Shown here: piece after piece, positions 4,580 to 29,192 of the stretch | Layout of the letters: each line of letters starts with the position of its first letter | Numbering within the stretch: position 1 is the first letter of the stretch | Assembly (NCBI RefSeq): GCF_000230735.2 | Contig: NC_019962.1 | Span: 2,170,001-2,234,000 of the forward strand | Length of the DNA: 64,000 bases | Direction: 5' to 3' | Source of the DNA: Natrinema pellirubrum DSM 15624 | GTDB taxonomy: Archaea > Halobacteriota > Halobacteria > Halobacteriales > Natrialbaceae | Position numbers and translations under genes: made by a program | Notes under the pieces: generated by a model | What the model saw: the letters and a program-made list of their open reading frames with translations, nothing else | Databases searched by the model: none | What the model was told of the DNA's origin: nothing

Positions 4580-5977
4580 TTACCGGGCCGGTTCGACGTT
4601 CTGGTTCAGTCGGAACAGGTTCTCCGGATCGTACTCGGCCTTGATCTCGGCCAGCCGGTCCCCATTTCGCCCGTAAGCGAGGTCCTCCTCGCCCGTCGCC
4701 TCGCTGATAAAGTTCGCGTAGACGCCGCCGGTCGCGTGCGGTGCCATCGCGTCGAAGAACGCCCGCGACCAGGCGATGCACTCGTCGTCCATGGCGGGAT
4801 CCTCCCACCGCGTGTGGACGTTCATGGCGTATTCGGCGTCCCGATGGGGGTACGCCGTGGCGTCCGAGGGGACACGTGCCATCGCGCCGCCGAGTTGCGC
4901 GAAGAAGATCTCGGACAGCGCCGACGGAAGGTCGGCTGCGTACTCGACCGCGGTATCGATGGCGTCGTCCGAGAGTTCACTGAAGTTGTGTGACTTCCAG
5001 TAGTTCCGGGACCCCTCGGTGAGTAGCGGATCGAACGCCTGCTGGAAGGCCGCGTACTGGTGGGGGCCGACAGCATCTGCGATCGGGTCTCCGTACTCAC
5101 GGAGCGGAGCCAAGACCTCCGCTCCCTCCACCATGTCTCCGGCGTAGAACGTCACGACGAGGACGACGCCGACGCCGTGGACGTCTTCGGGGAGGAACGG
5201 CAGGGGCGGTGCCTTCCGGAGGACGACCCAGACGGCGGCTTCCTCCGGTGCGTCCTCGTTGAAATCCCGGACGTGCCGGATGACGTCCCGTGCGTCTTCG
5301 CCCGCGTAGACGATCGGTCCCGAGAGGATCTCGGGGCCGACTTCGTGGAGGTCGAACTCGAAGGAGGTAACGACGCCGAAGTTGCCGCCACCGCCCCGAA
5401 TCCCCCAGAAGAGATCCGCGTTTTCCGTCTCGCTCGCGTGACGCAGTTCGCCGTCGGCAGTGACGATGTCCACGGACCGCAGGTTATCCACCGTCATTCC
5501 GTACCTGCGAGTCAACCAGCCGAAGCCGCCGCCGAGCGTGAGCCCCGCGATCCCGGTCGTCGAATTGATTCCGGTCGGTGTCGCCAGCCCGAACGCCTGT
5601 GCCTCGTGGTCGAAGTCGCCGAGGGTCGCCCCGGGCTCGACGCGGGCAGTCTGTGCCCCCGGATCGATACGAACCGACTGCATCGCCGAGAGGTCGAGCA
5701 TCAGCCCGTCGTCACAGACCGCGTTCCCCGCGATGTTGTGCCCGGCACCGCGAACCGCGAGAACCATCTCCTGTTCGCGGGCGAACTCCACCGCCACGAT
5801 CACGTCCGCGACGCCCCTCGAACGAGCGATGAGTGCCGGCCGCTTGTCGATCATTCCGTTCCAGATCGTTCGGGTTTCGTCGTAGTCCGGATCCCCGGGA
5901 CGGAGCAACTCGCCGTGAAGCCCCTCGCGGAATCCGTCTATTGCACCGTCGTCTACGGGTGTGGTCATCACTGCCAT
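4580..5977 (-). CDS. FAD-linked oxidase of the berberine-bridge family
   Basis: A 465-residue protein with an N-terminal FAD-binding PCMH domain (about residues 40-215) and a C-terminal BBE domain ending in the typical YDPENLFRLNQN. The sequence VRGAGHN places His80 where this family attaches FAD through the 8-alpha position, and GLTLGGGFGWL forms the pyrophosphate loop. Such enzymes oxidise sugars, alcohols or alkaloids with O2; the substrate here cannot be told. No signal peptide is visible, so it is cytoplasmic. ATGs at 5977 and 5968 are both possible. An A/T-rich element near 6025-6045 gives a short leader. Confidence 0.85.
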   Translation of the reverse strand: MAVMTTPVDDGAIDGFREGLHGELLRPGDPDYDETRTIWNGMIDKRPALIARSRGVADVIVAVEFAREQEMVLAVRGAGHNIAGNAVCDDGLMLDLSAMQSVRIDPGAQTARVEPGATLGDFDHEAQAFGLATPTGINSTTGIAGLTLGGGFGWLTRRYGMTVDNLRSVDIVTADGELRHASETENADLFWGIRGGGGNFGVVTSFEFDLHEVGPEILSGPIVYAGEDARDVIRHVRDFNEDAPEEAAVWVVLRKAPPLPFLPEDVHGVGVVLVVTFYAGDMVEGAEVLAPLREYGDPIADAVGPHQYAAFQQAFDPLLTEGSRNYWKSHNFSELSDDAIDTAVEYAADLPSALSEIFFAQLGGAMARVPSDATAYPHRDAEYAMNVHTRWEDPAMDDECIAWSRAFFDAMAPHATGGVYANFISEATGEEDLAYGRNGDRLAEIKAEYDPENLFRLNQNVEPAR

Positions 5978-6257
5978 CGTCCTTCGGTCTCTATACGCCT
6001 CGCTCGGAGATATAGCTGCACATAATTAATAATTAAGATAGGTCCGAGGGCGGGAGAGACTCGAGGACAGGCGTGTCGGGGCGTATCCGACGAACAAGCC
6101 TGTCACGGAGTGGGGTGAGTACGCGTAGTACCCACAGCGAGCGGATCCGCTCGAACTGGCATTACCGAGATGGACCCATCCACGATCCCGCGCCGCAACC
6201 GCTACAACATATTCGGGAAAATATTCATATTATTGCCCTCAGTTCTCCCGATAAGGA

Positions 6258-6275
6258 GTTTAGGTAGACCTAAAC
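6258..6275. promoter_or_regulatory. Distal DtxR/IdeR-type palindromic operator
   Basis: The sequence GTTTAGGTAGACCTAAAC has two perfect 8-bp arms separated by AG. The TTAGG/CCTAA half-sites match the core of the bacterial DtxR/IdeR box and fit the archaeal iron-dependent (Idr-type) repressors. Its centre is 120 bp upstream of the centre of the second palindrome. Recognition by an iron repressor is inference from the motif. Confidence 0.6.
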
Positions 6276-6370
6276 ATCTGGGGAGGACTCGCCGTCCCGA
6301 TGAAAGACGGTGTCGTGAGCCGCGCCTGTGTTATTATTCCGTCTGTTCGTCCGGGAAGTATCGAAGGCCA

Positions 6371-6395
6371 TATATACTTTTAGGCTGGCCTAAAA
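6371..6395 (+). promoter_or_regulatory. Promoter with overlapping DtxR/IdeR-type operator for the copper-protein gene
   Basis: A TATATA box (6371-6376) is centred about 26 bp before the ATG at 6399, indicating a leaderless transcript. Directly between the box and the start lies TTTTAGGCTGGCCTAAAA (6378-6395), a palindrome with two perfect 8-bp arms and a 2-bp spacer. A repressor bound there would block the transcription start, the classical arrangement for metal-dependent repression. Confidence 0.65.
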
Positions 6396-6398
6396 AAT

Positions 6399-8852
6399 AT
6401 GCGACAGACACGACGGACGTGGTTGAAGGGGAGCGGCGCCGCAATCGCGAGTCTCGCCCTCGCCGGCTGTTCCAGCGACGGCGACGAGGACGACGAGTCC
6501 ACGGACGACGGTGGCCCGAGCGACGAGGAATCGGCGACCGTCGAGCCGGCCGAGCGAGCCGTCGCCGCCGAGTGGAACGCGATGCGGGCCCGCCTGTGGG
6601 ACGCGCTCGCGGCGGGCGAAGCCGGGAAGACCGGAACGGGTGCCGCCATCGCCGGCGACACGTTCGAACGGTTCGAGACCGCAAGCGGCGAGTACAACGC
6701 CCACGAAGTCCTCGAGGAAACGGATCACGACCGCTACGAGGCGTTCGAGGAAGCCCTCGGCGAACTCCGGACGGAGGGCCTCGATCGCGGGGACATCGGC
6801 CGGGCACGCGAGGAAACCGTCATCGGCAGTGACGAACTCGGCCAGGCCCAAACGGCGCTCGTCGGCGAGGAGACGGCACAGGCGCTCGATCTCCAGTCGA
6901 TCGGTACGTCGACGGCCGACGCCGTCGTCGCCGCCGAGGCCGGTGCCTTCGACGCCGCCGAAACGGTCGCGACCGACGCGCTCGAGCGGTTCGAGGAGGC
7001 CGCGGTCCACGACGCGATCGAGGAGGCCGACGGCGAGATCTACGAGCGGTTCGAGAGCGCCCTCGAGGCCGTCGCGGCGGCCGCGGGAGAAGAAGACCTC
7101 GAGGGCGTCCGCTCGAGCGCGACGGACACGCTCGCGGCGGCCAACGAGGGCGCGTACGCCCTCGCACCGTCCGAGTCGGCGGCGGGGGCCGGTCAGATCG
7201 CGACCTATCAGGCCCGTGGCTGGGACGCCGCGGCGCTTTCGGGACTGGGCGGGCCGTCGACGGCGTTCGCACACGCGGCCGCACTGACCGGCTATCGGGC
7301 ACGGGCACACGACGCCGCCTGGCTCTTCGAGCGCGGACACGGAGACGCGGCAGGGCGAGTCGTCGAGAACGCCTTCGCCCACTTCGAGGGCGCTCGCGCA
7401 CACGAGGCCCTCGAGGAAGCCAGCGAGGACGCCTACCACCGGTTCGAGGAGGACGGACTCGACGCGCTCGCGACGGCTATCGAAAACGACGACGCCGAAG
7501 CGGTCGCGAACGCTGTCAAAGCTGTCGATGACGGGGTCGTGACCGGGATCGAGGCGCTGGGAACCGGCGTCGAACCCGCTCTGCTCGAGGCGAACTTCTT
7601 CAGGGCCCGGCTCGGCGACGCCGTCGAGCGGTACCGACTCGGCGAGAGCGAGGTCGCCGCCGAAATCGCCAGCGGGCTGTTCGAGACCTTCGAAGCGAAC
7701 GAGGCCGACTTCCACGAGACGCTCGAGGAGGCCGACCACGACCTCTACGAGACGTTCGAGGACGAACACCTGAACGGGCTGATCGATGCGTTCGAGAACG
7801 AGGACGACGCGGCCGTCGCCGACCACGCCGACGGCCTCGAGGCAACGCTGCTCGAGTTCGAAACGACGGCAGGGACGACCGCACAGGTCAGCGCCGTCGA
7901 GAGCGCCGCGATGGCGGCCCGGGCGTTCGACGCGGGCGTACTGGACGTCCTCGGTGCGGCGGATCGTGCGGAAACCGTGCTGCAAGAGATCTTCGAGGAC
8001 TTCGAACGCGGTGCCGGCGGCTTCCACGAGGCGCTCGAGGAAGCCGACCACGATCGCTACGAATCGTTCGAAGCGGCCCTCGGTGATGCCCGCAACGCCG
8101 CCGCCGACGGCGGGGACGTGAGCGCGGCAGTCCGGGCGTTCAACGAGCAGGCGATCGAAGCGACCTATACCGTCGTCGCGGACGCGGGCGGCTCGTTCAG
8201 TGACGCCGCCGCGTCGCTCGCATCGGACGTGTTCGCGGCGTTCGAGGAAGCACGGGCCCACGAACTCCTCGAGGAGGCCGACCACGATATCTACGAGGGC
8301 TTCGAGGCGGCGCTCGAGGACTACATCGGTGCGCTCGAGGACGGTTCGGACGTCGAGGCGGCCGCCGAAACGTTCGCGACGGCGGCGCTGCGGGCACAGT
8401 TCGCGGTCGCCGGCGCGCCCGACGCCGCCCCGAGCGGCGACGGAACGGGCGACTCCGGCGAGGGGTCCGGTTCGGAGACCGACCTCGAGGGCGGGCCGAA
8501 CGTCGTCGAAGGCGTTCCGAACGACGCCGACCACGTCGTCGATATGGAGGCCGTCGCGTTCGAACCGGAGACGCTCACCGTCGCGCAGGGCGACACCGTC
8601 GCCTGGAAACACGCGGCCGGCGAACCCCACTCCGTCACGGCCTACGAGGACCGGATTCCGGACGATGCCGACTACTGGGCCTCGGGTGGGTTCGATGGCG
8701 AGGACGCCGCCCGCGAGGGCTGGGAGAACGGCACGGGCGCAGTTCAGTCGGGCGAGTCCTACGTCCACACCTTTGAGACGACCGGCGAACACGAGTACGT
8801 CTGTATTCCTCACGAGAAGGCCGGGATGGTCGGGACCGTCGTCGTCGAGTAA
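6399..8852 (+). CDS. Secreted modular lipoprotein: six His-Glu modules plus C-terminal halocyanin (blue copper) domain
   Basis: An 817-residue protein. A Tat signal (RRTWLKGS at 5-12) and lipobox Cys24 (LAGC) predict a lipid-anchored extracellular protein. Residues 55-670 consist of about 100-residue helical modules, each ending in a motif like HE-x-LEEADHD-x-YE-x-FE. The conserved His residues are at 102, 204, 335, 439, 543 and 621, and each is followed by a Glu/Asp cluster. After a Gly/Ser/Glu linker, residues 700-817 form a cupredoxin with a complete type-1 copper set: His744, Cys802, His805 and Met810. I believe the N-terminal modules correspond to the Pfam domain called DUF5059, but cannot verify it. 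Two iron-repressor-type palindromes precede the gene, suggesting a role in extracellular iron or copper handling. The gene stands alone; cofD follows after 99 bp with its own context. Confidence 0.85.
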   Translation: MRQTRRTWLKGSGAAIASLALAGCSSDGDEDDESTDDGGPSDEESATVEPAERAVAAEWNAMRARLWDALAAGEAGKTGTGAAIAGDTFERFETASGEYNAHEVLEETDHDRYEAFEEALGELRTEGLDRGDIGRAREETVIGSDELGQAQTALVGEETAQALDLQSIGTSTADAVVAAEAGAFDAAETVATDALERFEEAAVHDAIEEADGEIYERFESALEAVAAAAGEEDLEGVRSSATDTLAAANEGAYALAPSESAAGAGQIATYQARGWDAAALSGLGGPSTAFAHAAALTGYRARAHDAAWLFERGHGDAAGRVVENAFAHFEGARAHEALEEASEDAYHRFEEDGLDALATAIENDDAEAVANAVKAVDDGVVTGIEALGTGVEPALLEANFFRARLGDAVERYRLGESEVAAEIASGLFETFEANEADFHETLEEADHDLYETFEDEHLNGLIDAFENEDDAAVADHADGLEATLLEFETTAGTTAQVSAVESAAMAARAFDAGVLDVLGAADRAETVLQEIFEDFERGAGGFHEALEEADHDRYESFEAALGDARNAAADGGDVSAAVRAFNEQAIEATYTVVADAGGSFSDAAASLASDVFAAFEEARAHELLEEADHDIYEGFEAALEDYIGALEDGSDVEAAAETFATAALRAQFAVAGAPDAAPSGDGTGDSGEGSGSETDLEGGPNVVEGVPNDADHVVDMEAVAFEPETLTVAQGDTVAWKHAAGEPHSVTAYEDRIPDDADYWASGGFDGEDAAREGWENGTGAVQSGESYVHTFETTGEHEYVCIPHEKAGMVGTVVVE

Positions 8853-26274: not shown

Positions 26275-29192
<2,918 letters not shown>

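Follow-up and report, generated by a model that had tools for sequence, protein, structure and literature searches.

A one-dimer DtxR-type operator kept before DUF5059-cupredoxin genes very probably ties a haloarchaeal blue-copper lipoprotein to the iron-shortage response

The DUF5059-cupredoxin protein encoded at 6399-8852 of the window (the whole 64,000-nucleotide stretch of Natrinema pellirubrum DNA analysed here) very probably belongs to the iron-shortage response, because the same putative switch stands at iron-scavenging genes of this genome and before all 55 relatives of the gene for which upstream DNA was compared. With high confidence, we interpret the two palindromes upstream of it as operators of the haloarchaeal iron regulon, such that the gene would be derepressed at iron shortage together with siderophore and transport genes. 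DUF5059, a domain of unknown function that is widespread in haloarchaea and here fused to a blue-copper domain, is thus tied to iron starvation by its promoter signal; as this signal was present in every gene examined, it indicates the condition to test and provides an operator that can be mutated. The regulon itself is already known; what is new is that the DUF5059-cupredoxin gene can be firmly assigned to it, unless Leyn and Rodionov (2015) list this gene. The features concerned are as follows.

6258-6275, no strand: distal operator GTTTAGGTAGACCTAAAC, an exact motif match, common only to the close relatives L067 and L074
6361-6376, + strand: BRE/TATA-like putative core promoter tcgaaggccatatata, with counterparts in the same position in relatives and ahead of other genes that have operators
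6378-6395, no strand: proximal operator TTTTAGGCTGGCCTAAAA, kept before DUF5059 genes throughout the sample
6399-8852, + strand: open reading frame for an 817-aa lipoprotein with a twin-arginine and lipobox (LAGC) N-terminus, DUF5059 and a cupredoxin domain (Pfam)
6558-8432, + strand: DUF5059 domain, residues 54-678 (PF16502, E 9.4e-222), tandem helical bundles in six repeats
8538-8849, + strand: type-1 copper (plastocyanin/amicyanin-like) domain, residues 714-817 (PF00127, E 2.4e-16, 60 bits)

Both palindromes are 18 bp long, with perfect 8-bp arms and a 2-bp spacer, just as an earlier sequence-only reading of the window had described them. Their centres, i.e., those of GTTTAGGTAGACCTAAAC and TTTTAGGCTGGCCTAAAA, lie exactly 120 bp apart; this figure holds for the window but is not conserved (123 bp in L067 and L074, mostly 33-37 bp elsewhere), and we discarded the exact spacing as a signature of looping, given the 123 bp of the two relatives and its absence elsewhere. 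The same reading had the second palindrome cover the region from the TATA box to the start. The palindrome does precede the start codon, with 3 nt between its end and the ATG at 6399, but it sits between TATA and ATG without covering the TATA box. From TATA to ATG the distance is ~26 nt, and a leaderless mRNA is therefore plausible for 6399-8852. The core TTAGGN4CCTAA occurs exactly twice in the window, with one further 1-mismatch site at 27740; shuffled versions of the window contained a mean of 0.21 matches, with at least 3 matches in 0 of 100 shuffles.

DUF5059 is distributed patchily, being found in 56 of 194 genomes of the class, while a draw of 296 genomes across the phylum yielded matches in 14, all in the window's own order; the nearest named relative found was Natrinema thermotolerans, with a 95% identical orthologue. 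From the class-wide draw, 55 DUF5059 genes with upstream DNA formed our conservation sample. The proximal operator (≤1 mismatch) lies upstream of 55/55, i.e., before every DUF5059-cupredoxin gene recovered from the class; in 51 of them, its first base is 15-23 nt ahead of the start codon, and in the other four (L039, L040, L044, L049) the automatic choice of start looks wrong. A second operator stands 33-37 bp upstream of the proximal one in 48 of the 55, and the bases between the two resemble a BRE plus TATA box. This points to a recurring archaeal layout for repression, in which paired one-dimer operators would bracket the BRE/TATA of leaderless genes. Outside the operators and promoter, the upstream DNA aligns poorly, and the compared loci have no conserved operon partner for DUF5059, with gene neighbours differing between lineages. 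Since the operators are kept while flanking DNA and neighbours are not, selection has acted on the sites themselves, as opposed to general similarity. The exact motif was present in each of 59 haloarchaeal genomes, with 475 sites against 10 for controls.

Across the 55 DUF5059 genes, the far operator occurs only in the window species, L067 and L074, located 120-123 bp away with none at the usual place (in L067 and L074 it lies at -142/-144); by comparison of upstream sequence, the window's far site is a variant found in a single small lineage. It is possible, though we consider it unlikely, that this site serves something else: the FAD-oxidoreductase gene transcribed in the opposite direction (4580-5977, - strand), a second promoter further upstream, or the small ORF that begins at 6300. 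The 120-bp displacement from the proximal operator, in place of the usual 33-37 bp, would agree with such a role, as would the AT-rich stretch (6208-6236) preceding the site. However, the FAD-oxidoreductase gene has an AT-rich promoter-like stretch of its own near 6020-6040, more than 210 bp from the far site, and those Natrinema relatives that also have the FAD gene as neighbour (L093/L094, L075, L080) lack the far site but possess one at -54. The small ORF at 6300, between the two sites, was set aside, as it is conserved in neither L067 nor L074. Upstream of the far operator, the segment aacatattcggg (6208-6219) is partly common to L067 and L074; its reverse complement resembles the denitrification motif CGAA-N4-TTCG, from which it departs at two positions (at one in L074).

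In the window's own genome (4.35 Mb), exact TTTAGGNNNNCCTAAA (TTTAGGN4CCTAAA) sites number 16, against 0 for reversed controls; allowing ≤1 mismatch, the counts are 24 and 3. Open reading frames around these sites were called by codon-position GC and then scanned against Pfam. Tandem operator pairs precede (i) a siderophore operon (class-III aminotransferase, PLP decarboxylase, IucA/IucC+FhuF) and (ii) a third Peripla_BP_2 gene, with (iii) three operators before a FecCD permease plus ATPase and the other two Peripla_BP_2 proteins. Single operators are found before (iv) SBP_bac_6 plus BPD_transp_1, (v) an ABC ATPase with TOBE_2, and (vi) a DtxR-family regulator gene. The genome-wide scan thus displays strong enrichment, with sites at siderophore synthesis, siderophore/Fe3+ ABC-transport and DtxR-family regulator genes. 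Further operators precede genes for a glycosyltransferase, an RGP protein, a CARDB protein, DUF7551/7552 and DUF7090, as well as a short Tat-type ORF that is itself ahead of a GMC oxidoreductase, with 1-mismatch operators before an LPG-synthase TM protein (LPG_synthase_TM) and an HTH_10 regulator; several of these (glycosyltransferase, RGP, LPG_synthase_TM, DUF7090, DUF7551, CARDB) have no obvious link to iron, which tells against the iron reading. Most such promoters share the arrangement seen in the window, i.e., a TATA-like stretch, the operator directly after it, and the start codon ~4-20 nt later. The genome encodes five PF00127 copper-domain genes, of which only the DUF5059 one is located at an operator. 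Motif enrichment at iron genes and conservation before 55/55 genes together support the earlier placement of a blue-copper gene in the iron-starvation response, for which the change in expression is a prediction.

Certain of these loci bear description in their own right. Four operators (one with a mismatch) at C1:730552-738633 (L016:8553-16634) precede glycosyltransferase, RGP-type, LPG-synthase-TM and SBP_bac_6/BPD_transp_1 ABC transporter genes, hinting at iron control of a cluster for surface glycans and transport. Exact or near-exact operators at C1:3713071-3713122 (L022) and C1:3786322 (L023) lie before DUF7551/DUF7552 and DUF7090 (KaiC-like) genes, candidates for further members of the iron regulon. 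At C1:1573910 (L025:4911-4926), a 1-mismatch operator is positioned 27 bp before an HTH_10 (bacterio-opsin-activator type) regulator ORF, with a DtxR-family gene ~1.7 kb beyond, which may connect iron with a further regulator. Weak operators (1-2 mismatches) at C1:2365037-2366001 (L026) flank a ferritin/Dps-type gene on both sides, as might be expected for iron storage.

For bacterial IdeR, TTAGGNNNNCCTAA is the site bound by one dimer (PMC8464063), and the 14-bp TTAGGN4CCTAA core corresponds to this IdeR half-site. The attribution of the TTAGG core to the DtxR/IdeR type hence stands for the one-dimer form, but not for the 19-bp bacterial box: both window sites have N4 spacing, as opposed to the classical two-dimer TTAGG-N9-CCTAA, and TTAGGN9CCTAA was found once in the whole genome, equal to the control. 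Whereas the bacterial two-dimer box is TTAGGTTAGSCTAACCTAA, here the sites are single 14-bp elements (16-18 bp when extended), often paired 33-37 bp apart.

In Haloferax, the fhu genes carry a "ferR" regulon signal (Leyn and Rodionov 2015, cited in PMC11349517), with Idr, SirR and TroR put forward as candidate regulators of the DtxR type (PMC11349517). The system described here resembles this haloarchaeal iron regulon in that fhu-type and siderophore genes are preceded by a palindromic signal and DtxR-family regulators are encoded in the genome; it differs in that the texts consulted do not name the DUF5059-cupredoxin gene as a member, though an earlier listing is possible. A point against the assignment is that neither halocyanin nor DUF5059 appears in the main text consulted for the Haloferax study of the proteome under iron starvation. 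Of 11 PF01325 matches in the window's genome, four are clear DtxR-family proteins, each with a strong match.

C1:1481902: SirR-like, with HTH, dimerisation and FeoA domains
C1:2711842: HTH and dimerisation domains
C1:1575885: DtxR-family protein
C1:3094474: short DtxR-family protein, with an exact operator ~130-150 bp upstream of its ORF, suggesting autoregulation

The binder would be an iron-loaded protein from among these four, with binding leading to repression. It is improbable that the palindromes are instead operators of a DtxR-family regulator that senses manganese, or both Fe and Mn, with the gene answering manganese and not iron. The DtxR family does include Mn sensors (PMC8464063), and the genome encodes the SirR-type protein with a FeoA domain (L028), but the other sites adjoin genes for siderophore synthesis and siderophore/Fe3+ transport, and no Mn-uptake gene was seen at any site in this genome. 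That the palindromes are chance or non-regulatory repeats is close to inconceivable, as chance origin is contradicted by the shuffles, the reversed-pattern controls and the conservation before 55/55 genes.

Under regulation by iron, each palindrome would be bound by a single dimer of a metal sensor of the DtxR family. When iron is sufficient, metal-loaded repressor would occupy the proximal site in the TATA/ATG interval and thereby block TBP, TFB and RNA polymerase. Once iron runs short, the repressor would leave, and the DUF5059-cupredoxin protein would be made along with the products of the genes for siderophores and for ABC transport of iron. The far site might add occupancy or raise the local concentration of repressor; in most other lineages, this same role would fall to the second site 33-37 bp upstream, which brackets the BRE/TATA with the proximal one.

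The gene product is indeed the modular blue-copper lipoprotein previously proposed, with Tat/lipobox, DUF5059 and a PF00127 domain bearing H, C, H and M ligands. Across 22 homologues, the RR pair and C24 are invariant, as are the copper ligands H744, C802, H805 and M810. A Pfam scan at E 0.1 detected only DUF5059, Copper-bind and a weak TPR_30; a sequence search of solved structures returned plastocyanin-type matches only, and the full protein model had structural matches to cupredoxins only (the copper domain matching amicyanin at Z 11.8, and the amicyanin/plastocyanin fold at Z 11-12). The protein thus shares with halocyanin, plastocyanin and amicyanin a C-terminal type-1 copper domain with invariant H, C, H and M, on an exported lipoprotein; it differs from the halocyanin family in that the 620-residue helical-repeat DUF5059 precedes the copper domain. 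Haloferax volcanii is among the species with a DUF5059 match. Its HVO_2150 (hcpG) could not be equated with the DUF5059 protein and was left out of consideration.

Modelled alone with AF2, DUF5059 forms a confident helical-bundle array (mean pLDDT 93.5). Its six repeats follow the pattern FxxFE...H[ED]xxxE...YxxFE, with the His/Glu positions mostly invariant, most weakly so in repeat 2, and these positions look like metal ligands. Foldseek gave no match to this model below E 0.18; a second structural comparison returned four-helix bundles of the vinculin, talin, PsbQ and cytochrome c' types at Z 8-12, which may merely reflect a common arrangement. A known fold for DUF5059 was consequently rejected, with generic four-helix bundles the only matches and no convincing structural relative.

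EfeO-type iron-uptake proteins consist of a cupredoxin plus an M75 domain. The likeness to EfeO is one of functional analogy only: in both, an exported cupredoxin is fused with a helical domain that bears His/Glu motifs, and control is by iron (here predicted); in the window protein the domain order is reversed and there is no conserved iron-transport neighbour. By sequence, the window protein has no M75 match in Pfam (E 0.1). The matches from the fold search were the generic bundles, with none to M75.

Two options are suggested for the function of the protein: uptake of iron with the help of copper, or transfer of electrons by a copper carrier at times when proteins that need iron cannot be made. 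The most likely role, proposed less firmly than the regulation, is that of an exported metal-binding and electron-transfer lipoprotein aiding iron acquisition at the cell surface; while this is favoured, the choice is uncertain, with an electron carrier for iron-poor conditions as the main alternative. A more elaborate proposal, and one we judge rather improbable, is that of a copper-dependent surface iron-acquisition machine, in which six His/Glu bundle units would bind iron and the blue-copper domain would change its redox state for uptake, so that haloarchaea would have an equivalent of EfeO assembled from unrelated parts. Three genomes of the window's family (L088-L090) carry shortened DUF5059 genes (~506-524 aa, profile positions 2-234 and 546-619); in these, the middle repeats are missing and one operator, at -19, is retained.
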